A DNA stretch of 64,000 nucleotides, taken from positions 63,216 through 127,215 of the forward strand of contig NW_001798977.1 of assembly GCF_000165425.1 (NCBI RefSeq). Direction: 5' to 3'. The position numbers and the translations under genes are program-made. This document shows, one piece after another, positions 268 to 30,444 of the stretch (position 1 is its first letter; every line of letters begins with the position of its first letter). The DNA is from Paramecium tetraurelia (taxonomy: Eukaryota > Ciliophora > Oligohymenophorea > Peniculida > Parameciidae). The notes under the pieces were generated by a model. That model was not told the origin of the DNA. It made no database searches and saw only the letters and a program-made list of their open reading frames with translations.

Positions 268-1964
268 TCATTCCTTTGGTTGATATTGATGGTAATAATA
301 GGGATACATTAAATTAAAATTACCGTATTATTAATTGCTATGGTAACACTATAGGAATTAGTTGTAATCTTATTGGTAGGCATTACAATATTAAAGATTG
401 GAGAACTGATTGAAGATCTACATAAAGATTATATTACTTCAGGAGCTTAAAATTAGTTATTCGATAAATTAGGATTCATAGCAGCGCCCTGTTTCATTAT
501 TCTAAATAAAATAATAAATTTACTTATCTTTTTAAACTACCTATTTCTCTAACAAATTTTAAGCATGATTTTCTTATTCCTTCTCGTCTTTTACTTGTTC
601 TGCTTGGTTTCCTTGATTCTCTTGACTATGTTGTTGGTGATTTAATTATATTTTTTTAGAGATTTAACGAATCTGGCCTGAAAGAGGCTGCATACGGTCA
701 GCAGTCACTTAAATTAAATGTTATTTGGGGTCATCTTGGAACACAACTTAGTCAAGACCTTTCTGGGTTTGCTTTAACTTGGCATTTTGAGGCTTGGAGC
801 CATTGAAATTTTCATTTTATTTCTTGCCTTCTGCATGATCGATAAAATGTTGGTATTTCCTCTTGTATTCTCTAGTTAAAGAGTAGATGTCGGTTATTTC
901 TACTGCGTCTGAGGGGATGTTGGCTCTTTGAGTGTATATTTCATAATAATTATTCTCCAACTATTTAATTATATCTAGAGCCTATAATATATTAATAAAA
1001 ATTTACTTTCTTTAATGTGTTTTAATTAGAATTTTCAACTTTTATTAATAGTTTCATCTCGTTTGACTGGCTCAATTGTTGTTTGACTTAACTTAAATGG
1101 GACAACACTTGCATTAATACACTCTCCGACTTTTTTATAAAATTAGCACCAAAGAATAATTTGACACATTTAGGGAACTTCATAACCATGAAGAGGGGAT
1201 GCTTAATCTTGTTCCTAATGTTAGGAGATGTGTAGTAATTAATAAAACCTTGAAGTGATTTATCAATTTAACTAAATTTGGAGTTCTGTTTCGCATTTTC
1301 TCTTTTATAAAATATTTAATCAATAAACTAGGGAGGAAAAAGATCTAAAAACATTTCTTAGGATATGTCTCTACTGTTATGACCAGTTCTATTTCTTGAG
1401 TCTACAAACACATCTGAAGAGATTTACGAGTCTAATATCAGAACTTCTTCTTTTCTGGAATAAGATAACACAAATATAAAGTTAAACTTGGAGTACTAAA
1501 TCTATATTTCTGAATTACTTTATTGTTGTAAGATGTAGTTGCAAATTTCAATCCACTAAATGTTATAGAAGGTTCAAATAATGCTAATTTGGTATTTCCT
1601 CTTAATCCAAGACTAATGTATTGATTAGTAATCAGTCCTCTTTTGATAACAAAAATTTACACTTCCAAAATCCCTCCTCTAAAGTCTCTCATTGTAGTAT
1701 CATCTTTTTTAAACTATATACTTGATTTATCAGTACATTTAATGTGTAATTTATGTCAGGTAAGTTCCATGATTTGTGCCAATTCCATCCAAGCTCAGGA
1801 TCAGACATGAACTCCTTCGACTAAGAAATGGAGACTGTAAATAAATCTTTTGGCCACTATGAATCTTCAGATTTCAGCTCCCATATAACTTTATTTGATT
1901 TTTGATCGACTAAAACCCCAGTCACAGGCATATATTTCCATTCTAAAGAGCCCTCTGCTGCCAT
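268..1964 (-). CDS. Q/N-rich protein of unknown function, 527 aa
   Basis: ATG is at 1964-1962 and the TGA at 270-268. Removing five introns of 23, 23, 25, 22 and 20 nt (all GTA...TAG) leaves exactly 528 codons. The N-terminal half is ordinary mixed sequence (it starts MAAEGSLEWKYMPVTGVLV and has the Trp-rich WNWHKSW). The middle is basic. The last 150 residues are dominated by Gln and Asn and end in a Tyr-rich tail (PYYYHQYQPKE), the composition of prion-like or phase-separating segments. I recognise no family. The last two introns matter: without them the opposite strand shows a hydrophobic open frame that looks like a membrane protein but is an antisense shadow. Confidence 0.65.
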
Positions 1965-1993
1965 TTATTGAACTTTTAAATATATATTTATTA

Positions 1994-2289
1994 TCAATTA
2001 ATGTGTAATGCATATAAACCACCAAGAAAGGCATCATTTCCTTCAAATAAATGAGGAAATTTAAAAATAATATTTAATAAATTAATTTTAGAAGATATAT
2101 TTTGGTATATTATAAGCTGTATGTATTAATTATAGTTTAAATTATAATAAGTATATTTGATTTGTAATGATTGAGACTCCACACTCATCCAATTTGCCAA
2201 ATTAAAGTGTTTGTCTATAGATAGTGCAGCAAATGCGTGCTCTGTGAGTACTCCTTACTTTGGGTACCCTGATAAGCGATTTCCATCAT
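1994..2289 (-). CDS. possible small protein, 92 aa
   Basis: The frame starts at a double ATG (2289), uses one 17-nt GTA...CAG intron near the 5' end, and ends at TGA 1996-1994; the spliced length is a multiple of three. The product contains HAFAALSIDKHFNLANWMSV and ends FEGNDAFLGGLYALHIN, which reads like real protein rather than AT-rich filler. It lies 29 bases upstream of the minus-strand gene that starts at 1964 and could alternatively be its 5' exons or leader. The intron is shorter than usual. There is no recognised domain. Confidence 0.4.
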
Positions 2290-2429
2290 TCAATGTTGAT
2301 TAACAAATTCAACACTCTAAATTTTTTAAATTTATTCAATTCAAACCTCAATATTGCACTAATTTAATTATGATGAAATAATATATATTAAGGGTAACTT
2401 TAAAATATTAAATTATTTTGAAAAATAAT

Positions 2430-3689
2430 ATGAATTACATTAACAATCAATATCAACTAATAAAGAAATTATCAGCCGGTAGTTATGGGATAGTCTATGA
2501 GGGTGAGAACATTCCAACTAAAACTTCTGTTGCTATCAAGATTGAGAAAAAGGACAAACCTCAAACCCTGGAAAGAGAAGTCTCATCCTTATCTCGATTG
2601 TCAAAAATTGCAGGAATCCCCTAAATCTATTGGAATGGAACTCACAATGGACAAAATGTCCTTGTCATGCAATTGTTATCCAAGGATCTCGGGTGCTACT
2701 TAAAGGAGTACCGAAAATTCACTCTCAAAACAGTATTAATGATTGCAGATTAATTAATATAAATTCTGAGGAATGTTCATCAGAAATCCATCTTGCACAG
2801 AGATTTGAAGCCTGAAAATCTTATGTATCATTAGAGATAAATTTACATTGTAGATTTCGGGATTAGTAAGATATACAGAGATAGCACTTAAAAACATATG
2901 TAAAAATAGATCTTATGATATTTAGACCATTTAGAGAGGGGAGACCATTTGTAGGAACTACTCGATATGCTCCTATTGCTGCTCATAAGGGTCATGAATT
3001 AAGCAGAAAAGACGACCTGGAAACATTAATCTACATCCTAGTTCTATTTTTGAAAGGGTATAAAGGATTTTTAATTTAGATTAAAGAGTTCTACCATGGC
3101 AACACTAGCTTTCTCAAAACAACAAAGAGAGATAAAAACTGATAGGCGAAAAAAAGATTAAATTAAGCTCTACTGAAATTTGTTAGGATTTACCAATTGA
3201 GTTCTAAAAAGCTTTAGAGTAAATTTCATCTGTCTAATTTGAGCCATATTAAGAGTCTCGGTTTCTCGGTTGAACCTGATTACGACTATTTAATAAATCT
3301 CTTTAGGAAATTAGGATAAAGACATGGATTTGAGTATGACAATTTGTTTGATTGGTGCAAAGAAGAGGAGGTGATTGCATAGGCTAAAATCATGCAATAG
3401 AGTGAAAAAATGTAGCCTTTTTCAGTTAAATGGTAAATATACATTACAAAACATTAGTCAATCTTTACAAATACCTTCTACATTGGAATGCTTTGAAAAA
3501 AAGTAATCCTCGATTTCTAACATTTTATAAAATCCTATGCAGATTTCATAAAGTGCTGTTATAGTGGAAATCAACTCTGACACAAATCTTTCGGATGATA
3601 GCACTAATTACCTCTATAATAATTATTAATAATTAGAAAACTTTTCAAATTTGTATAAAAACCATCTCTTGATTATGAAAGATAAATGA
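2430..3689 (+). CDS. casein kinase 1-type protein kinase, 384 aa
   Basis: Ser/Thr kinase of the CK1 group. Starting at ATG 2430 there are four introns (26, 29, 25 and 25 nt; two end AAG or GAG rather than TAG), giving 385 codons. In order: glycine loop LSAGSYGIVYEG, catalytic Lys in VAIKIE, HRDLKPENLMY, DFGISK, then the CK1-specific GTTRYAP and RKDDLE block in place of the usual APE motif, and the helical CK1 C-lobe (LPWQ, IEFQKALDHIKSLGF, DYDYLINLFRKL). A Ser/Asn-rich tail of about 80 residues follows. All catalytic residues are present, so it should be active. CK1 kinases are abundant in ciliates and act on many substrates; no specific role can be read here. Confidence 0.92.
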
Positions 3690-3956
3690 ACTTTTGCTAA
3701 GAAAAATGAATTCTTGATTTATAAATATTATTCTTATTTTGTTTTATGAAAATTGTACTTCAATAATAATTACAACTACATCAACTAATTTCACTTTGTT
3801 TTTGAATCTTCATTATTATAATGCGAATCTAAAACTCTCAGAGTGCATGATCTTAGTAAGAACACCCAACCGAATAAAGTTCTTTGTGAATGGGATTATT
3901 TTTAGTTAGCTTTTGTTTCACCTAAAATATACTAATATTAATTTCAAAAATTACTA

Positions 3957-4587
3957 ATGTCAGAATAGATTACATCCTCTCAAGTTATAGAGTTTTTCTG
4001 GTTTTTCTTTCCCTTTTTATTATTCGTAAGTGCTGTTCTACTGAAATTTTACATTAAGACTAGCATTCATTTGGATTAATCAGAAAATAGAGCAAAGTCA
4101 TATAGTTAATAAAGTCTTCAGGATCGTAAAAGCAATGAGCCTAAAAGACTGGATCATGATGGGATTTAAGGGCCAGGTATATGAGATAATCATTAATCGT
4201 ATTTTAGAGGTACAAATTGTTGGGAATGATATGCATCATCAACAGATGAATATGGTGGATGAAGGAGAGAAAAAGCAGATACAATAGTCATAATAATAAT
4301 TCTAGTAAATTCCTCAATTATCAACAATCTCACCAAATCTTACATAAAATGTATACTATAATATTCAAAATTAGACTAGGACTGCCAAAGTGTTTGATGG
4401 ATTGAATGAATTGGTTTCGACATACTTTCCACTATTATCAGTCTCTATTATTTGTATAAATAATTTTGCCGCATGGAGTTGGGCATTAGCTTGTGTAATT
4501 TTATTTCTAATTTTTGTAATTGCATTCAACATCCTTTAAGTGCAGCGTAATTTTTCAGATACAATCAAAAGTAATATCATATTATGA
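3957..4587 (+). CDS. small membrane protein, 199 aa
   Basis: ATG 3957, one 31-nt intron, TGA 4585-4587; 200 codons. There is one hydrophobic segment near the N-terminus (FFWFFFPFLLFVSAVLL), a polar Gln/Met-rich middle of about 90 residues, and a C-terminal pair of membrane segments (YFPLLSVSIICINNFAAW, then WALACVILFLIFVIAFNIL). This fits three transmembrane helices around a cytosolic or lumenal loop. No family is recognised. It follows the CK1 gene by 267 bases on the same strand. Confidence 0.65.
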
Positions 4588-5036
4588 GTAATTTAGAATT
4601 TTTGTTTGTTAGTCATCATGTGTGGTTGAGTGGTCTATTTATTAGTTATTTAGCCTGTAAATTGAAATTGTCAGATTGAAATCATAATTAATTTATAATA
4701 TCAGTTTGTTTAATATTAATTAGTTCGAATTATTTAATATCAATTTTTAATTTATTTTTTGATGAGAATTTTTAGAGATTGTGATGAAGTTAGTGCTTAT
4801 TTAAAATTCATTAATTATTTATTAATAATTTTTGTAATATATATTTAATATATATATGATTAGATCAAGAATGGAAGTATTTGTAATTGAGAATTTCAAA
4901 AAAATTTATATTAAATATATTTCTTAGTAATTTACGTTTCTAAGGTTTTTTTTGTTTCTAAGTTTTGGCAATCCATCATTTTCTAATTTTATGCGATCAA
5001 ATAAATATTATCATCTTTTAGATTAAGCATTTATTG
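4588..5036. other. AT-rich intergenic spacer
   Basis: About 450 bases of very AT-rich sequence with no motif-bearing frame on either strand after the ciliate code is applied. It probably holds the 3' UTR of the membrane-protein gene and the promoter of the next gene. I see no RNA gene. Confidence 0.5.
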
Positions 5037-5542
5037 ATGGGTGCTCAAATATGCCCAAATGCTTAGAATAATTCCCAAAATGAAATTACTCTACAAAATA
5101 AGCCTAAGATTCATATAACTAAGCCTCCCAAGAATCATAAGCTATAACCGATAATTAATTTGCATTTTCCTGATGAGATTATGGATATTCAAAGGGAAAG
5201 ATAATATTCGATTCCCTAACAGTCCTCTTAGGATTAAAGCACTTCGAAATAGGAGGTTAATGAAAATAAAATTGAACCTTTACAATAATTGGAAAGAATC
5301 AACCTAAATCCCTAAGACAATCAAAATGAATAATAAAATGATTCAAGAGACGATTCAAATAGCGCACTGCTTGAAGGTATTATGTACTGAATAGAGTAGT
5401 AAAATATAAACCGATACTTAAACATCCTCCAAGTCCAAGGAATTGTCAAAATGATGGAGAATCTCAAAAATCAGTTAAAAAAGTCACATTTGATAAAAAG
5501 TAGAGAGTGATTTACAGTAACTTCAGAAAACCTAACTAATGA
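5037..5542 (+). CDS. small polar protein with PP1-docking-like motif, 160 aa
   Basis: ATG 5037, one 23-nt intron, TGA at 5540-5542; 161 codons. The N-terminus MGAQIC has Gly2 and Cys6, which would suit N-myristoylation and palmitoylation (inference). The protein is polar and Gln/Asn-rich. Near the C-terminus SVKKVTFDKK contains KVTF, a match to the RVxF-type docking motif that binds protein phosphatase 1, next to a basic stretch as in inhibitor-2- or spinophilin-type regulators. The motif is short and could be chance. No other domain is visible. Confidence 0.6.
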
Positions 5543-5673
5543 ACAAATAACAACTCAAAATCCCGTTTAAATCTTTTGACTATTTTATAATTTTCAGAAT
5601 CTTTTTCAACGAAATAAATTCTAAATATGTTATTTTTGTTAATTATAATTTCCAATCATATAGATTATCCGTA

Positions 5674-5931
5674 ATGAAAGTTGATCTAACTACGCTAACT
5701 AAATGTTCCAAATTGCAAACTTCAATTAAAGCATTTCAACAATAGATTATGCGATCATGAAAGGATGAGACTGAACATTTCAACAAAGAAATTGACACAT
5801 TATTTTAGTGATAAAATAGCAATACTGGTGTGAAAAATTAATTAGAATTTCTAGAGAATAAACAGAAGGATCTCTTGATTCAGATTAAAACAAGTCAGGA
5901 TGGTCAAATGATAATTGACGGAGTCTTGTGA
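5674..5931 (+). pseudogene. possible gene relic with two in-frame TGA
   Basis: A single frame of 86 codons starts at ATG 5674 and ends with TGA 5929-5931. It reads as helical, charged protein (ETEHFNKEIDTLF; LEFLENKQKDLLIQIKTS) but is broken by two in-frame TGA codons after about 28 and 45 residues. No GT...AG pair of plausible length removes either one. A decayed coiled-coil gene is the simplest reading. Noncoding sequence that is open by chance is the alternative. Confidence 0.35.
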
Positions 5932-6020
5932 TATTTTTTATAAAATCAATAGTGTGTACTATTTTGAATATTGAGTAATATAAGGAAATTAATATATATT
6001 ATATTTAATTCAAAGTAAGA

Positions 6021-7004
6021 ATGATAAAAGAATACTAACCCAAAATATTTTCAAAGGATTAATTTAGAATCAGATACAAGGACTTGGAGGAAATATATAA
6101 TGAAGAAATGTCTCCAACTTAAATTGAATTAGGTTATGATGATGAATTGCAACAAGTATCAGAATAGATAATAAGTAGACAGTCGTCGTTAAACACATTT
6201 TCAAGGAGCAATTGTTCAATGATATATAAAGAAGATAAGCTTTGATGGAATGTTAAGTACATTCTTAAATTAAAAATGATCATTTAGTGGAACTATATGA
6301 TTGTTTTCAAAACGAAGAAGAATATACACTAATTTTAGAATACATGAACAATGCTAACTATTTTAGGGATAAAATTGAAACTGTAATAACAATCACATAA
6401 ATATGTAAAGGAACTTAAGATAATATCAACTGAGGCCAAAATGAAGTCCTACATGTCGGATGTATTGGAAGGACTAGACTACCTGCATAAGCAAGGTATT
6501 CTACCGATTCTTGGCTAGGATATATTCACTGTGACATCAAATTAGAGAATCTGTTCTGTGAAAAATTGGAGGATCAGGTGTTTAGAAATGTATTCGACTT
6601 TGTTAATTAGGTGAAATTAGGAGACTTAGGATTGGTGCATGTCTACGATCTAAACACAGGACAAGGTCTGATGCCAGTGAAGTGTGGAACAGCCAATTAC
6701 ATAGCCCCAGAAATAACAAACAATGCTGTTGTGACTCCTAAGATAGATATCTGGTCTCTTGGAATAATATTGTATACGATGAGTTGTGGTTATAAACCTA
6801 CTCAAATTCAAGGGTCGTTCAATCTATTATTATTTTTCTAGATACAAGTATTCATAAGGTCCCATACCCTTTAGAAAGTTTGATTGGAAAAAGAGATCAA
6901 AAGAACTATAAAACCTAATAACTTAAATGCTTGAGATGGATCCAAATAAAAGACCATCCTGCCAAGAATTAATGCAGCATTCTTGGTTTGAAATTGATTC
7001 TTGA
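6021..7004 (+). CDS. divergent Ser/Thr protein kinase, 293 aa
   Basis: ATG 6021, four introns (23, 28, 23 and 28 nt), TGA 7002-7004; 294 codons. The C-lobe is clear: HCDIKLENLF (the Arg of HRD replaced by Cys), DLG in place of DFG, a GTANYIAPE activation-loop end, and IDIWSLGIILYTM. Upstream VVVKHI holds the likely ATP-binding Lys and LMECQVHSQI the helix-C Glu. No glycine-rich loop can be seen N-terminal to VVVKHI; the residues there are acidic. So it is either an atypical kinase or the first intron hides a differently spliced loop. The HRD Asp and DLG Asp are kept, so activity is possible. Confidence 0.8.
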
Positions 7005-7043: not shown

Positions 7044-7340
7044 TCAGATTTGCTTGATTTGTCTTTGATCAGGTTCCCAGAATTCGCTGAAATTAAACCC
7101 GAAAACTTTATAAAAGAAGCCTCTGTCCTTTCTCTTGAAACTATCGAAAGAGGGCAATCCGGAAACCTAGTACTTAAGAGTGTGAATTACCTTGGCGTCA
7201 ATTAATTGCTTTTTGTCTCCCTCGTAGCGATGCTGTAGTAATTTAGTGTAATCGTTGAAGATATTCTCACAATTCTTTTTGCAAATCTCACCCTCAACTA
7301 ATTTTTAACATGGTTCCAAACACTTTTGATATTCTACCAT
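7044..7340 (-). CDS. small Cys-containing protein, 90 aa
   Basis: ATG 7340, TGA 7046-7044. One 24-nt GTA...TAG intron fits, giving 91 codons. That intron is a multiple of three and contains no TGA, so the unspliced message would also be translatable (98 aa). The N-terminal half has four Cys (CLEPCQKL, then ICKKNC), vaguely like small CHCH-type mitochondrial proteins, but the spacing does not match the twin CX9C pattern. It converges on the kinase gene ending at 7004. Function unknown. Confidence 0.55.
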
Positions 7341-7611
7341 TTTAAATCAATGTGATCGTTACTTTCTGATAAATCGAAATACACCTTCATTCTTTCTTAT
7401 TACTCTGATGAATACACATGATAAACTTCACTTCTCAAAATCACTTTCTCCTTTATCATCTATTTATTAATTTATTATATAAATATTCTCAAATTCATTT
7501 ATCTAGTTAATTTACAAAACTTGTTTTATTACTGTATTTTATCCTTTGTAAAATAACATATATCTCCAAGATAATGATTATAAAATAATCTTAAAAATTA
7601 ATAACTTAAAA

Positions 7612-9440
7612 ATGACATAAACCATCAATACTGATTTGCTATTGAGGATAAGCACTTTAAATTAAGAGTTTAAGTTGCTAGACACAAAAACTAATTTCTT
7701 TATTGAGTAAATCCAAAATGCGTTGTCAATCTAAAAAGAAGAGAATGAAAGTAGTCGATATATCTGTGATCAGAATACGAAAGTATGATTTCATCTTACA
7801 TAGAGTGTTAGTGAATTGAAGGAGCATTTGGATCAATAGGTAGGGAATCTGTATAAGAAATATGAGGAATAAGTTAATGATAAAATCATCGAATTTGAAC
7901 GCATTTAAAAATAAAAAGAAATTTCAGAATAAAATAGAATAATAGAATTAGAACAAAGATTCAGCCAATATGATGAAATAATTAAAGAATTAGACAAAAA
8001 GTGGGAATCAAAATCTAATGATCGTTATATCGCAAGTATAATTCAAAAGAACTTGTTAACCAACCAGAATATAGGGTAGTTTATAGTTGACAAAGTATTG
8101 AAATCGACCGAGGAGACTGTTCAAAACAAAATGATTGAATATTCAAAGTTAATAGATGAAAGAATAACAAATCAATTTCATTCAATTTAAAACTTTCAAA
8201 CTCAAATCAGAAAATACGAATCAAAGTATGAAGAGTTTCAAAACCATCTCAACATCCAAAAAGAGTTTTAGGTGGAGTGCCAAAAGCAACAACAAAAAAA
8301 ACTCTAAGCTTTATAAAATCAAAATACATTATTCAAGGAAGTGCTGTAACAATAGGTTCATAGGTAACTCAATCATCATTTAAATTAGTATAAAGGATTA
8401 GTAAGAACTCCTCAAAACCACTATTAATGATTTACGAGAATAAATGGTCAATTAATTTCAAGATGTTTCGTACTAAAAGAACTGCAATAATGAATAAGTA
8501 ATGCAAATTTTGGCATAAGATCAAAATACACTTAAGGAACTGGAAAGAAAATAAGAATAGATCATCAAAAATGAAAATTAAATTAAGTAAAAATTGGAAT
8601 AGATGGAATTCGATTACTGTCAATAACATTAAGGAGCCTTAAATTAAATTGTTACAATCGACTGTGAAATGAAAAACATTAGATCAACAGTTAATGGGAT
8701 ACATAAAACTATAAATACTATGTCATTGAATCCTTAACAGATACAAGAAGCTAAACAAATTGAAAAGCCTCAAGAAAAGTTTAGACCGTTGCTAATTAGT
8801 AAAAAGATTGAAAAGCAATTCTGTTTGAAAGATTAGATCGGATAAATAGAAACTCTATTTCGACACGTTTAATTACTCTTCGACCACATTTGTAAAACTT
8901 ATCGAAATGAACAAAAATTGGAATCTCAGAAATAGAAATAAAAAGCAGAATTAACAAGAAACAATTCGAATGAACAAAAAAACCTTTCTGATAACATAAA
9001 CAATCAGTAATATGTGAAATAATATTTTTAATATGAAAAACAACAAGAATAAATAAAGCCTGACTAAAAAGTTGATAAACTTTAATATACAATGCAAAAT
9101 CCTTAAAATTAATTAAAAATTAATATTTAACCCTCATTACAGAATAATGAAGATGTTTTTGGAGACACTAGGATATATTTGAACTCTTCCCAGAGACCTC
9201 TTCATATTTAAGGAAAATGTATCACTATTTATTTAAATAGAACATGGAATGGAAGTTAGGCCTCAAGCTGAAATGCAATATTTATCTGCCAAGGTGAAAT
9301 AAATCTCAAGTTTGTTCTGCGATTCAGACTTCAGACAATCATTAGTTGAAAATAACCTAAGTTTTAGACCTGAATCAGGGAAAAACAGATTACCAAGGAT
9401 TACTTCAAAAAGCTTTCATTTTTCAAATGATGATGAATGA
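7612..9440 (+). CDS. long coiled-coil protein, 586 aa
   Basis: ATG 7612, three introns (21, 25 and 22 nt), TGA 9438-9440; 587 codons. Almost the whole product is charged and Gln-rich with heptad-like spacing of Leu, Ile and Phe, typical of long coiled coils, followed by a Gln/Asn-rich stretch and a short polar tail. No enzymatic motif is present. Such proteins are common in the ciliate cortex, basal bodies and cilia, but nothing here assigns it to one structure. It converges on the phosphoglycerate mutase gene with a 42-base gap. Confidence 0.75.
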
Positions 9441-9482
9441 AGGTGATTTTTGTTTTTGTTTATTGATACCAATATTATTTTA

Positions 9483-10282
9483 TCATTTCTTTGCTCCCTA
9501 TTTAGCAACAGCCTCCATCTTTCTTCTAATTTCCTCTTGATCTCCTAAATAATAGGATCCCAAAGATTTTAAATTGCTATCGAATTCATAAACTAATGGA
9601 ACACTTGTTGGAATATTTAGTTCAAGAATGTCTAATTGAATAAGTATTTCATACCTTTTTCTGAAACATTGTCTAAGTACTTTACAATACTTCTCAATGA
9701 ATTTCCATGAGCAACCACTAAAACATTCTTACCAGCTAGAATGTCCTTAGCAATATGATCATGCCAGTATGGAATAACTCTAACAACGGTATCTTTGAGA
9801 CATTCAGTGAGTGGTAAAGCATCTTTAGGTACATCAGCGTATCTTCTATCATTGGCTGGATTTCTGGCATCTGTTGGATCCAAAGGAGGAGGTGGGATAT
9901 CATATGATCTTCTCCAAATTTTGACTTAATCCTCTCCATGCTTTTATGCTGTCTCACTCTTATTTAAGCCTTATAGGGCACCATAATGTCTTTCATTAAG
10001 TCTCCAACTTTTGGTGACTGGCAAGTAATGACATCCCATTTCTTCGGCTGCGTAATTGTATGTTTAAATAGCTCTTGTCAAAACTGATGTGTAAACCTAA
10101 TGGAATTAGAATCCTTCTTTCTTTAGTAATTATCCAGCAGCTTTAGCTTCTTCAACTCCTTTTTAAGAGAGTGTAACATCATGCCATCCTGTAAATCTGT
10201 TTTCCTTATTCCATTAGGATTCACCATGTCTTAGAAAAACTACTCTATATTTGGCTAAAGCGTTCTTGAACACTGTTTGCAT
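9483..10282 (-). CDS. PGAM: cofactor-dependent phosphoglycerate mutase, 258 aa
   Basis: 2,3-bisphosphoglycerate-dependent phosphoglycerate mutase: interconverts 3- and 2-phosphoglycerate in glycolysis, in the cytosol. ATG 10282, one 23-nt intron, 259 codons, the usual length for the family. The phosphohistidine motif LRHGESQWN lies near residue 20 (its Gln is a TAA codon). Then [19 protein letters not shown], the acid Glu region [23 protein letters not shown] and VVAHGNSLR with the second catalytic His. All active-site elements are intact. The C-terminal tail ends QGAKK. It lies downstream of the ABCF gene on the same strand. Confidence 0.97.
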
Positions 10283-24054: not shown

Positions 24055-25823
24055 ATGCAAAACATACAAATTAACTATGGTGAGGTAGTTTACCATATAG
24101 TTTGTCAGAGAGAACATCTAGTTCAAGACATCTACTACCATTTGTACGTCTTTACGAATGCTATTACATTGTCAACTGTAATTCTATAGAGTTATGATTT
24201 AATAATAGGAAATCGAATGTCCTACTCCAAAGTACATGGTGCCAATAAATTTAGAGAATAACATCCATTGGGTCAGAAATAATCAGAGAGTCTTGACTCA
24301 ATTCGGCGTTGAGTATAAAGGAACAGTCAAATATTTCACAGCTCCAGAATAAGAACTAAAAATGTTCAAGAGAATAATCAAAAACAGAATTATGTACAGA
24401 GAAGTCAGCGACTTCTATCAACCATTAAAACTCTTGGGCAAGGGAGGCTCATCCAAAGTATGTTATTTAACTCAAATTTTAGGTTTATTTGGTATAGGAA
24501 AAGGACAATTCAGCAGAGTTTGCATCCAAATGTATTGAGAAAAGGTATCTCAGAGAAGATGGTGGTTATGTAAGAATTACTCTCCTATTTTAAGACTGCC
24601 TTATTCAATGAAATCACAATCATGTCCAACCTAGACAACGAGTAAATCGTCAAACTTGAAGAAGTCTATGAAGGAGACAACACATTTTATCTCATACTTG
24701 AGTATTTGAAGGGACCAAGTCTACATGACTTATGTAATAGTAGAAGTACAACATAGCCTTTGTCTTGGGAGTAGATTAAACAAATTATGTGGGTACTTTA
24801 ATATGTTTAAATATTTATAGCAATTACTCAAAGGGGTAACTCATATGCATAGTTTAAACATCATGCATCGAGATCTCAAACCAGAGAATATCATGTTTAA
24901 GGAACACGGATCCGTCTAAGGTCTTAGAATAGTTGATTTTGGCTTGGCAACAAATACAAATGTAGAAAAATACCCATTCCCAAAATGTGGAACTCCTGGA
25001 TATGTTGCTCCAGAAATTGCTAATCTCAAAGATCTCACTCTAAAATACGATAAGATCTGTGATATGTTTAGTGTTGGTTGCATCTTCTATAAATTGTAAG
25101 CAATTGTTTTTATCATTCAGGATTACCCAGAAAGATTTATTCCCAGGAATTGACTATCACGAAATTCTTAAACTGAACAAAAAGTGCTACGTCAATCTTG
25201 ATAACCTTCAGATGTTCAAGGCTCCCTCTTCAGCTGTCGAACTCATCTCTTAAATGCTTAATTCCAATCCTAGTCTAAGAATCTCTGCTTAAAAAGCCTT
25301 AGAACACTTATTCTTTGTTCAAAGTCCCTAAGCTGATATTAGAATTAGCTTTTAGACAAAAAAGCGATTAGACCCTTAGAACAAATTATGGTAGACTTAA
25401 CTTTTCAAAAACATCAAATCAGATAAAATTCAGCTTCCTGAGATTCCTGTCAAGCATAGGTAATAAGCAAAAGAGGATGAGGTGGTTGAAGATGAGAAAG
25501 TGTGCATAAATGTTCCTGTTATGAAAAGCCCAAGATTCCAACAATAAATTAAATAGAAAAATATTAATCTCATTGATAGTTAACCTTCAACTCCCAGAAC
25601 CAAATAAATTAAGAAATACTCAACTCAGGACTATGATTTATCATCTGATGCTTCATCTCCTGATTCAGCTAGAATGAGACCAACTATTGTCCTTAAAAAT
25701 GTACCTCAAAGCTCTGCTAAGGCTCAAACTCCAAGAGCTCGACCAAGCAAATAAATCATTTTACAAAGACAATTGTCAAATCAACCTATTGAGGAAGTAA
25801 ATGAAGAAGAAGCCAAAGCTTGA
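24055..25823 (+). CDS. CaMK/CDPK-like Ser/Thr kinase, 544 aa
   Basis: ATG 24055, five introns (31, 25, 25, 28 and 25 nt), TGA 25821-25823; 545 codons. An N-terminal region of about 115 residues may be a PH-like domain, as in many ciliate kinases of this type (inference). The kinase domain is complete: LLGKGGSSKVYLV, ASKCIEKR with the ATP-binding Lys, EITIMSNL, MHRDLKPENIMF, DFGLAT, CGTPGYVAPE. A Ser/Pro/Lys-rich tail of about 180 residues follows and has no EF-hands, so calcium regulation, if any, is not built in. Substrate unknown. Confidence 0.9.
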
Positions 25824-26009: not shown

Positions 26010-26604
26010 TCAGTTCCCTGCATCTTTCTGCTTTTTCTTTTCTATCCCATTTTTAGAAAGTTAAATTAATACGTTATTTACGTGATCAGCTGTCTTAGCA
26101 CTACATTCAGCAAACTGTAAATTATGTGACTGGCAATACTCTTATGCTTTAGCAGTCTCAACTCTTTTATATAGATATAACTCTAATTTACTATTTCTAT
26201 TCTTCCAAATCATTTTTATTTCCAATCACCAACAATTAAACGTTCTTCTCTCCGTATTTTTTAGTTTCAGGCAACCAATACTTGTCTATTTCCTCAAAAG
26301 TATCTGCTTAGGTAACATCATAAACCATTATTATGGCTTCTGCCCCCTTAATATAAGTATAGATCAATCTAACCTTGTAATATGCACTTGTAATTGTTCT
26401 GAATCTCTCCTATCCTGCAGTATCCCAAATCTGTAACTTTACATTGTTGTCCTCCAGATGCAGAGTTCTCTATCTGAAATCCACACTAAGAGATTAGGAT
26501 TCACTAAATTAGTCACCAGCGAATCTCTATATTAAAGAACTCTTTCCAACCCCAAGATTACCTGTCAGGACAAACTTGAACTAATGATCCTTTTATTTGA
26601 TCAT
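26010..26604 (-). CDS. Rab-like small GTPase without a C-terminal prenylation cysteine, 179 aa
   Basis: ATG 26604, two introns (27 and 28 nt, both ending AAG), TGA 26012-26010; 180 codons. Nucleotide-binding motifs: GNLGVGKSS (P-loop), SVDFRQRTL (switch I region), WDTAGQERF (switch II with the catalytic Gln), GNKNDLE and ECSAK. Family members act as membrane-traffic switches and normally end in one or two Cys that carry geranylgeranyl groups; this one ends KKQKDAGN with none. It is also short in the hypervariable tail. Either an unprenylated Rab-like protein or a missed 3' exon. It lies 212 bases from the divergent CHHC-RING gene. Confidence 0.88.
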
Positions 26605-26816
26605 TTATGATTTCTTTCCAAATATTAATATTTAAATATCCTTCTAAGGATCATATATAGTGCAAATGCGCGATAACAAACTGACGCAATAACTTAGTGT
26701 AAAAAAGGAAAGAATAATATTATATATATATCGAGGTTAAATTTTATTTAAGTTTCTCTTTTAATTCACTCAAAATTTAATTAAAATAATTATTGAAGTG
26801 ATTTTTACTTGAAAAT

Positions 26817-28778
26817 ATGAAACAAATTGAAATCGACAAAGAATCAGACCAACCAACAATTCAAGAAGAAACCTTGTTAAAGACTGAATAATATTTGTGT
26901 CCAGCCAATAGAAATCATAAATTGTAAAGTCTTGACAAATTATTATCTCATCTACATACATGCAAAGAAGTTAAATTGGCTGACAAACCTCGATTCGTAT
27001 ACTATTGTTAAGTATAACCCCTATCTATACAAGTATTATCAAGGCCATTGTTTTTTGACAACAGAGGACCGAGAGAAACATGAAAGGACTTGCCAATGGA
27101 GAATAGGGTTAAAAAAGTAACCTGATCCCACAGCCAACAAGTATTCAATCATCTAGCCTCTGGGCAAACCGATTAATCCTCAGCAACAGCAAAAACCTGT
27201 TGCTTACACAGATTAGCAACAAAGAAATTATGAGTATGCCATCAAGAAAGGTTTAATCAAGAAGAAGGCATATGATGAATACATACCCGAGGATGGGTTC
27301 GAATTCAACAAGGATTTTAAGAAAGTGGATGAGTTGATGAAATTGTAAATCTAGAAAAACATTTCAGGTTTATAATTTTATAATTTTATAATAGATTAAA
27401 ATTAGAATAATATACAGTTTACATTTAAAACCCATTTTTTTATGGTCCAGCCTCAAAACAAGTAATTGATCGAATTTCTGATAAAGAGAATCCCTTATAA
27501 TCTGTACTTTAGGAAACATAAGGTAAATGTACAATAATTCAGTTTAGTTTTATAGAGAAGAGGAGAAGAATTAAATTGTCTAGAAGTTTCTAATGAAGGA
27601 GAAGAAGAGGGAGTAGAGAAGACAAAAGGGCAAGCCTGATATTAAATATAATATGGTTAATCAGATACCCAATGATATCCTATTGAGTTTGTTGAATTTC
27701 AATACATATGAAGATTATTTAGACAAATAGATGGATGTAAAAATATATTCTAAAATAGGAATTCGTAAATTGTAAGAAGATGGAAGAGGAAAATGTTCTT
27801 ACGTCTACGTATTTGATGACCACAGGCAAAAAGGCGATTTTCATTCTTTAGATTGGCAGGGACTTCAAGGATATCTTCGGTAGGAATATCAACCTATTGG
27901 ATTTTAAGGCTATATTTGCAGATTTCCTAGCATTTTCGTTTAAAAGGGATGAGAATATGAATAAGCAGATTGAGCCATATCTAACTTAAACATCAGAACA
28001 TGTAGAGAGTGGTAAAAATTAAAAACAAAATTAAAACATTTTTGAGGAAGAGATAGACATTTAATAGTAGAGATTGATAGGAGAATTGAAGGCTAAACTT
28101 GAGATATAGAAATAAAAGAACCAGGAGGATAAAAGTCAGTTGGAAAGAAATCAAAGGGAATTGCAGGAGTTGATTGAGAAGAAAAAGTGTTTGATTTAGA
28201 AGGAATCAGATATTGAACAATAAATAAAGAGAGTCAATGCTTAAATCAATTCATATCATTCAAAGATAAAATCATATAAATAGGAGTTGGAATTGAAGAA
28301 TCAGGAAAAAATAAAAATCTTATATGATTAGAAGGAGAAAGAATTGAACGAGTTTATTGATGCATTGAATCAGTAGGTGAATCAATATGAGAGCAGTCAA
28401 TAGGAGATTAAGGATGAGATCTAGAGTTTGAAGGAGGAAAAGCAGAAGTTGAAAAGTACAATTAATAGATTACAACCGTTTAAATTATAATTGGAGAGAT
28501 AATTGGAGGATCTTCAAAAGCAGGAAAGCAGTGTCCCTTAGTAGATGACTTAGTCAGAATATTATACTGGGAATGAATTTGTGTTTGACATTTCTGATAA
28601 AATAAAATGTAAGGCGTGTAAGATAAGAAAAATAAATGTTGTTTATATTCCTTGTGGAGATGCAGCATTGTGTAAGATTTGCCACGAAAAGTTTGAATAG
28701 TTGTTACCTCATGTCTGTCCGATATGTGAGCAGTTTGTAAAAAGAGTTTATCATTTTATGTGGGAAAATGAAGGATGA
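26817..28778 (+). CDS. double CHHC zinc finger, coiled coil and RING protein, 621 aa
   Basis: ATG 26817, four introns (22, 27, 25 and 22 nt), TGA 28776-28778; 622 codons. Two CHHC fingers with identical spacing C-x5-H-x10-H-x3-C: C28-H34-H45-C49 and C63-H69-H80-C84. This finger type occurs in U11-48K, TRM13 and GTSF1 and binds RNA. A conserved-looking central region and a coiled coil of about 170 residues follow. The C-terminus has an IAP-like RING: CKACKIRKINVVYIPCGD, LCKICHEKF, CPICEQ, with the usual His after CG replaced by Asp. RING proteins are E3 ubiquitin ligases, so this couples an RNA-binding finger pair to ubiquitin transfer (inference). The first intron sits inside the second finger and is needed to form it. 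Confidence 0.85.
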
Positions 28779-28959: not shown

Positions 28960-30444
28960 ATGACATCAAATGTGTGTGGATCAAGTTAATACTCACTATT
29001 CCAAGGTGCCAATACCCTTAAATGTCTAAACATTAAAGATTTTTGTGGATCGTATTCCTAATGTCTTTAAGTAAATGATTAAATTGGGGCAATGGGTTAT
29101 GGATGTTGCAGAGAAGATTATCTTTACCCAAGAGCGGCCAACATCATCGTTTATATTCTAATCATTCCAATAATTGGGATAGGCAGTTTAGGAGCTTTGG
29201 GAGGTAGAATCGTTAATTAAGCATTAGGTGGTGTGGTGAAGAGGCCATTTTTGGAGGCTGTTCTAAATTTCAATTCAGGTCTTTCAGGAAACATTACTGC
29301 GTGTCTTATGTTTGGAGCCCAATTAGTTAATCAGATAATTATCACATTCTAGAAGTAATAAAATTATAGAATGAAAGACATCCCTACCACCCTTAGCGTC
29401 CAGCTGTCAACTATGAGGTCGGGATGATTTATGCCTTGGCCATTCCACTTTCTATGCAATTTGGATAGGAATTAGCAAGCTACATGCCGCTATTACCAGT
29501 TTTAACTATATAGATGATGTTTTTCATTGTCATTCTTCCAATTTGCCTATTGTACGCAAAAAGACAAGAAGTAGTTGAATAAGAATTAGAGGAAGATTAC
29601 ACTGATTCTCATATTTCTATGACAACTGCTTTTAAAGGCTCAATTCAAGATGAAGCTTAGGCTGCCTTAGTGTATAAATAGTTTCTAGATGAATCTCATT
29701 AAATCCTACCTCTCTTACCCATCCTTATTGCCATTGGAAGTTTCGCAGCTAACGAAGCAGTGATTCTTTCTAGAACAACGCTTTATTAGACATCGCCTTA
29801 TTACCCAAAGAGATCTTCAAATTAAAAACTAGATCCATGCGATCCTTGGAATTTCTATATGATGATTGTATTATTTGCAGTGAACATTTTCATTACTGGA
29901 TTAACCTTATTGTATTTCAGATACAAAGAACAAATTAAGGACAATGTGAGGTACAAATTAAAGGAAAGATACTTTACTCCAACCAGAAGGTTCTTTAAAA
30001 TATACGGAGCTGGATGTGCTACTGGTTTTATAGCAGGATTTTTAGGCATGGCAGCAGGTTTAACGATGTTTGTTACAATGGTATAATTTGGTTTGGTTGC
30101 TGCTTCTGCAGGGGCAACAGCAAATTACGGTTATTTTATTGTGTGTCTACAAGTATTTGTATCATTCATGGTCAGCGACTCTGGAATGCCAATTGGTGAT
30201 CAGTTTTTCTTTTACGGAATAGGGGTAAGTGTAATTGATAATGCCTTAGATTTTAGGTGTCTTGATATTCACCAACCTAGGCTATTACTACATTAATAAA
30301 TATAAAATAGGGCATATATTATTTTATATTGATTTTGCCATTGTAGTCTTAAACATAGCTGGTAACATTGCATGGGGAGTAGAATAAAATCATAGATAAG
30401 GTTTTAATTCTATAGTCGATATCAATCAATCCTGTAGAACATGA
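28960..30444 (+). CDS. TauE/SafE (TSUP) family membrane protein, copy 1, 478 aa
   Basis: ATG 28960, introns of 23 nt (29355-29377, ending AAAG) and 25 nt (near 30227), TGA 30442-30444; 479 codons. A Cys-rich N-terminal segment is followed by helices NIIVYILIIPIIGIGSLGALGG, the glycine-rich repeat GAGCATGFIAGFLGMAAG, and LVAASAGATANYGYF with DQFFFYGIG. The repeated G-x-G-A-G-G-like motif in both halves is typical of TauE/SafE (TSUP) permeases, which move sulfonates, sulfite or related anions. Its paralogue is at 38747-40296. Substrate unknown. Confidence 0.85.

Follow-up and report, generated by a model that had tools for sequence, protein, structure and literature searches.

The window analysed here, a stretch of 64,000 nucleotides of Paramecium tetraurelia DNA, carries at 26817-28778 of the forward strand a gene for a protein of 621 amino acids. 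Read with the ciliate code (table 6) and with four introns removed, it forms a single open frame from the ATG at 26817 to the TGA at 28776-28778, with no internal TGA (Table 1). The original prediction placed a pair of N-terminal fingers and a C-terminal RING in one protein; both modules are present in this spliced frame, and the CHHC finger pair and RING architecture in one gene is real. The gene lies on contig C24 of the genome set searched (69.07 Mb, 231 contigs) and would map to scaffold 119, 90,032-91,993. Just upstream, on the other strand, an unspliced frame at 26158-26769 encodes a small GTPase of the Ras/Rab type (PF00071, 122 bits). The frame directly downstream, at 29103-30332 (+), has a similarity to TauE/SafE below threshold (26.0 bits, cut-off 32.6), and the one at 24732-25823 (+) gives a weak match to the last 32 positions of the protein-kinase profile (17.3 bits, cut-off 31.7) and may be where a kinase gene ends. 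At locus L069, elsewhere in the genome, ~869-6151 (+) and 7313-9998 (-), two successive calpain-type and two successive Ulp1-type protease frames were observed.

Table 1. Parts of the CHHC-RING gene, in positions of the window.
Feature	Position	Strand	Description
Exon 1	26817..27011	+	Residues 1-65: N-terminal tail, finger 1, first Cys of finger 2
Finger 1	26898..26963	+	C28-x5-H34-x10-H45-x3-C49, residues 28-49, CPANRNHKLQSLDKLLSHLHTC; aligned to L011 and mouse GTSF1
Finger 2	27006..27093	+	C64-x5-H70-x10-H81-x3-C85, residues 64-85; intron 1 inside; aligned to L011 and mouse GTSF1
Intron 1	27012..27033	+	22 nt, GTA...AAG; L011 homology runs through the junction
Exon 2	27034..27367	+	Remainder of finger 2, beginning of middle region
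Intron 2	27368..27394	+	27 nt, GTT...TAG; in frame whether removed or kept
Exon 3	27395..27522	+	Middle region
Intron 3	27523..27547	+	25 nt, GTA...TAG
Exon 4	27548..27736	+	Middle region
Intron 4	27737..27758	+	22 nt, GTA...TAG
Exon 5	27759..28778	+	Residues 283-621 and TGA: end of middle region, charged stretch, RING
Probable coiled coil	28044..28523	+	About residues 378-537; judged by eye from composition
IAP-type RING	28602..28748	+	Residues 564-612: C566 C569 C581 D583 C587 C590 C602 C605
Asp583	28659..28661	+	His ligand position of the RING

Introns of Paramecium are usually of the form GTA...TAG, and two of the four have atypical ends, namely the acceptor of intron 1, AAG being unusual in this genus, and the donor of intron 2. 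These ends could favour a gene-model artefact, in which the finger part and the RING part belong to separate transcripts, as could the fact that the frame stops after 88 codons when intron 1 is retained. Such an artefact is nevertheless scarcely credible, given that the gaps between exons are just 22-27 nt, that the spliced frame is free of TGA and that the homology to the relative described below, L011, crosses intron 1. An intron ending in AAG lies within finger 2 in both finger-pair genes (1669-1693 of L011 and 27012-27033 of the window), at different positions.

Both fingers, for which an identical C-x5-H-x10-H-x3-C spacing had been claimed, are seen in the spliced protein, and the pair is not readily produced by chance. 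When the pattern was loosened to C-x5-H-x8..11-H-x3..4-C, one finger or more turned up in 609 of 200,000 shuffled versions of the first 100 residues, and a pair in none; for shuffles of the whole protein the figures were 28 of 50,000 and, again, none. In the unspliced window, read in six frames, the loosened pattern occurs singly at two places, namely finger 1 and an unrelated site; finger 2 escapes such a scan, being split by intron 1. According to the accessible sections of PMC9539491, the canonical CHHC spacing has x9 (CPX4HX9HX3C), as opposed to the x10 found here.

The zf-U11-48K profile (PF05253, cut-off 21.1 bits), proposed as a check of the fingers, fails to match those of the 621-residue protein, or L011, even at an E value of 10. 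The finger region alone has no phmmer hit in the PDB at the same limit, and the structure model predicted for exon 1 is of low confidence (mean pLDDT 55), too poor to be used. The kinship of these fingers to CHHC fingers is visible only through the paralogue L011. When the full protein was searched against its own genome at E ≤ 0.01, one locus was found besides the gene itself (C176:31267, E 1.4e-6), in a search in which six candidates passed the first look and few were scored. The reverse search with the 152 residues of L011 returned, at E ≤ 1, itself and the CHHC-RING gene only (E 2.2e-6). L011 is a gene of 484 nt (C176:31225-31708) with one 25-nt intron ending in AAG, and its product of 18.55 kDa has the finger pair with x10 spacing and no Pfam match above cut-off. 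Exon 1 is homologous in the two genes, and 28 of 63 residues (44%) are identical across both fingers (pairwise E 1e-15), with the CHHC ligands aligned. L011 differs in the x4 before the last Cys of finger 2, in its short length and in the lack of a RING pattern in its 3-kb locus, and no similarity was found beyond residue 82 of the CHHC-RING protein. The fingers of the CHHC-RING gene and of this probable GTSF1 gene have a common ancestry.

A profile (A1) made from the finger pair and L011 was compared with 177,635 PDB sequences. The best row was mouse GTSF1 (6x46), with E 0.01 and both fingers aligned in the same order; the next rows, of 2'-5'-oligoadenylate synthase (E 0.054), contain no stretch passing alone. 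As a positive control, a profile of canonical tandems (A2) had GTSF1 and U11-48K in its first four rows. The alignment of A1 with the canonical CHHC tandems of the genome by hhalign had an E value of 4.5e-4 and a probability of just 33%, a score reached by none of 200 full column shuffles and by one of 200 in which Cys and His columns were kept. These comparisons support placing the fingers of the CHHC-RING protein with the GTSF1-type CHHC fingers. The kinship originally suggested to GTSF1, U11-48K and TRM13 stands for GTSF1, through L011 and mouse GTSF1; U11-48K and TRM13 do not rank nearest among the relatives found. Elsewhere in the genome PF05253 has six matches at five loci, including the canonical tandems L001 (55 bits), L002 and L005, and L003, which we take to be TRM13-like. 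CHHC fingers with a spacing of x9 or near it were observed at L001, L002, L005 and L006, the first three being tandems and L006 having one finger that fits.

Two tandem N-terminal CHHC fingers are a trait of the GTSF1 family and are present, with x10 instead of x9. The second trait, a small protein of ~19 kDa with an unstructured C-terminus, is absent, and given its 621 residues and C-terminal RING we class the protein as a carrier of the GTSF1 module and not as a GTSF1. Animal GTSF1/Asterix proteins likewise differ from it in their x9 spacing and their size of less than 20 kDa, as given in the available text of PMC9539491. It has also to be considered whether the fingers are zinc fingers of the SIAH/TRAF type, the protein being a reordered SIAH-like ligase. 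At E ≤ 10 the first 101 residues match a single Pfam family, Sina_ZnF (E 0.092), and Cys71, adjoining His70, permits an alternative ligand set in finger 2. Its 13.6 bits, though, are below the cut-off of 32; L011, which keeps the His, has Trp at the position of Cys71 and no Sina match; and neither SIAH nor TRAF is among the eight PDB rows of profile A1 at E ≤ 10, in which GTSF1 was found. The zf-TRAF profile is itself weakly matched (E 0.005) by a canonical CHHC tandem from this genome, so that cross-matches of the Sina/TRAF kind are to be expected. We consider this origin of the fingers very improbable.

The probable identity of L011 comes from its position and size. Contigs seem to run in the text order of size-ranked scaffold names. 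This order is suggested by the lengths of C2 (981,684), of C14, C36, C47, C58, C69 and C80 (descending from 682,700 to 628,000), and of C108 (950,118), C155 (889,839), C177 (770,190), C189 (749,870) and C222 (697,514). By it a published gene tag predicts a contig, and seven of nine tested tags fit the predicted one, at 1.4-1.9 kb per gene number. PIWI matches were found for PTIWI09 (G0660118, C196, 188.7 kb) and PTIWI01 (G0710112, C202, 168.8 kb), and chromodomain matches for May1 (G1380122, C45, 181 kb), May2 (G0800198, C212, 273 kb), May3 (G1450044, C53, 80 kb), May4 (G1520043, C61, 81 kb) and Fire2 (G0020347, C108, 608 kb). Chromodomain matches are many (36), which makes each hit weak alone and the set with its positions stronger. 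Fire1 (G0220149) is compatible with C121 at 219 kb, a contig that the order does not fix. EZL1 (G1740049) has no SET match on the predicted C85, whose number is extrapolated past the last confirmed contig; nine long frames taken from the 20 kb surrounding its expected site have none either. PGM (G0490162) was missed on C176, its predicted contig, a miss that says little. By the contig order C176 is scaffold 49, in which the 31.2 kb of L011 fits gene 19, G0490019. The published Gtsf1 is described in the available portions of PMC11724296 as a protein of 18 kDa with a recoded segment at 247-480, and the mass and length of L011 are compatible with both. L011 is thus probably GTSF1, PTET.51.1.G0490019, and the link to PIWI is stronger than the original prediction knew, because the one relative found in the genome is probably Gtsf1 by position and size.

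The other end of the protein was described as an IAP-like RING with Asp where the family has His, and this description holds. The PF13920 profile (zf-C3HC4_3, cut-off 27) is matched with 34.7 bits and E 1.6e-8 in the whole protein, which also answers the check proposed for this module, and with 39.1 bits by the segment alone; IAP RINGs of solved structure, with cIAP and XIAP aligned, are matched with E values down to 5.9e-6. The C-terminal position of the RING is also that of the IAP ligases (cIAP1/2, XIAP). Unlike these, the 621-residue protein has no BIR row at E ≤ 10 (the RING segment alone reaches E 0.66), and its C3HC4 ligand set is incomplete, with seven Cys kept and the His changed to Asp583. 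Forty other RING stretches of the genome were compared: out of 145 listed matches, the 20 top-ranking ones and a further 20 chosen from lower down. Thirty-nine (36 distinct strings) fit the pattern and carry His, 38 by pattern and L056 by eye, since a Cys doublet there shifts the His out of the pattern position; L051 is outside the pattern, and His is thus found in all 39 scorable stretches. Activation of E2-ubiquitin is helped by the residue that follows the final RING Cys; it is Glu606 here, as against Arg in the aligned cIAP RINGs and Tyr in XIAP. Given that Asp583 replaces a zinc-binding His and Glu606 the Arg of cIAP, the RING could be inactive. The predicted structure of the last 87 residues is of low confidence (pLDDT 60) and too poor to use. 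Between the fingers and the RING, residues ~378-537 appear on inspection rich in Gln, Glu and Lys and almost without Pro and Gly.

Searches of the genome with the middle region or the RING segment brought to light no further gene of this full architecture. The middle region gives no significant match, and its 279 residues return from the genome itself and one match at E 0.78. The RING segment returns itself and three weak matches, C212:103789 (E 0.0046), C210:243961 (E 0.079) and C160:93716 (E 0.88), which were rejected as relatives in architecture, having by eye other contents, without the finger pair; the frame at C210:243961 appears to be a repeat-plus-RING protein. In the ~6-kb surroundings of each of the 20 top-ranking RINGs, out of the 145 matches listed, no finger pair lies beside the RING; one of these 20 regions, L040, has a lone CHHC-like pattern. 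Conversely, no RING pattern occurs at the CHHC loci L001-L006 and L011, within ~3 kb each. Three groups of proteins with CHHC fingers had been described, as stated in the available part of PMC9539491, and neither a CHHC-RING fusion nor the CHHC-RING gene turned up in the papers found by our literature searches. The combination may already be known through the Rnf1 and Rnf2 of Wang et al.

Several observations in the accessible sections of PMC11724296 bear on the function of a protein with these fingers. Gtsf1 is located in the maternal macronucleus and binds Ptiwi09, RNase I treatment notwithstanding. Without Gtsf1, Ptiwi09 accumulates; its ubiquitylation depends on both Gtsf1 and Ema1, and MG132 raises its level. 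Recruitment of E3 ligases has been proposed in that work, in the available sections of which none is named for Ptiwi09. A working analogy drawn there is ZSWIM8, the ligase of target-directed microRNA degradation, where pairing of the guide with its target leads to removal of the Argonaute through ubiquitin. Our best explanation, held tentatively and at close to an even chance, is that the CHHC-RING protein is a diverged Gtsf1 paralogue that acts at Ptiwi complexes, where its RING would make it a scaffold or a ligase. The tandem CHHC module would dock the protein on complexes of Ptiwi and small RNA, or on partners or RNA common with Gtsf1; oligomers would form through the probable coiled coil and the RING, which in turn would recruit the ubiquitin machinery or serve as a protein platform. 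We infer from this a role in the scnRNA pathway, contact with Ptiwi proteins and RING activity despite Asp583; a ligase activity and its ubiquitylation target belong to the same inference, and the RNA guidance or RNP targeting suggested by the original prediction is hypothetical. Against this reading count two of the nine tags, EZL1 and PGM, which were missed, the failure of PF05253 to match even at E 10, and the atypical, perhaps inactive RING. In addition, according to the accessible text of PMC9539491, the ligand of CHHC fingers is structured RNA in some cases and protein in others, and the PIWI binding of fly and mouse GTSF1 lies mainly C-terminal of the fingers, while mouse GTSF1L and GTSF2 bind PIWI through a finger. 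As PIWI binding lies behind the fingers in fly and mouse and similarity to L011 was not found beyond residue 82, RNA or proteins other than PIWI may be what the fingers by themselves bind.

Another reading is an ordinary vegetative RING ligase, with fingers derived from CHHC and the tie to small RNA lost. The similarity to L011 is confined to the fingers, CHHC fingers bind RNA or protein in several settings (available text of PMC9539491), and RING genes are many, with at least 145 PF13920 matches listed. Such a ligase is rather unlikely in our view, seeing that the sole finger relative found in 69 Mb, in a search whose first look scores few candidates, is the probable GTSF1, and reciprocally so. 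A possible, though less likely, reading is that the gene is that of a published PRC2 cofactor, Rnf1 (RF4) or Rnf2 (RF2), the RING being structural and not catalytic; Rnf1/RF4 would link PRC2 to Ptiwi09, and Rnf2 would be needed for PRC2 activity. By their published description these Polycomb cofactors have the same kinds of domain as the CHHC-RING gene, which may be one of them. The accessible part of PMC10073204 presents RF4, equated with Rnf1, as a bridge between PRC2 and Ptiwi09. From the available portions of the published work, H2AK119ub1 is independent of Rnf1, and the silencing segments of Rnf1 and Rnf2, 1-1000 and 1-1677 nt, both fit within the 1962-nt gene; an atypical RING suits a non-catalytic role. 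Opposed to this are the number of RING genes (again at least 145 PF13920 matches listed) and the absence from the literature searched of any tag starting PTET.51.1.G11900. A search of PMC6143343 for gene tags gave no hit. The identity with Rnf1 or Rnf2 is compatible with the Gtsf1 paralogue and overlaps it: the gene would then be known, and what is new would be that its fingers are kin to those of Gtsf1.

A RING protein that bears at its N-terminus the one relative found in the genome of the Gtsf1 fingers is an obvious ligase candidate for the destruction by Paramecium of PIWI complexes matching its genome, and a candidate link between small-RNA sorting and ubiquitin, which can be tested by RNAi of a single gene. 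It may be imagined that Ptiwi01/09, once they carry scnRNAs that match the somatic genome of the mother, are marked by this protein as the ligase, its finger module reading the docking site of Gtsf1 and its RING ubiquitylating the PIWI protein upon target pairing. This is doubtful, and we consider it distinctly unlikely; if true, it would be an independent invention of target-directed small-RNA degradation. If instead the gene is Rnf1/RF4, the kinship with Gtsf1 would hint at the means by which PIWI is recognised by a Polycomb cofactor.
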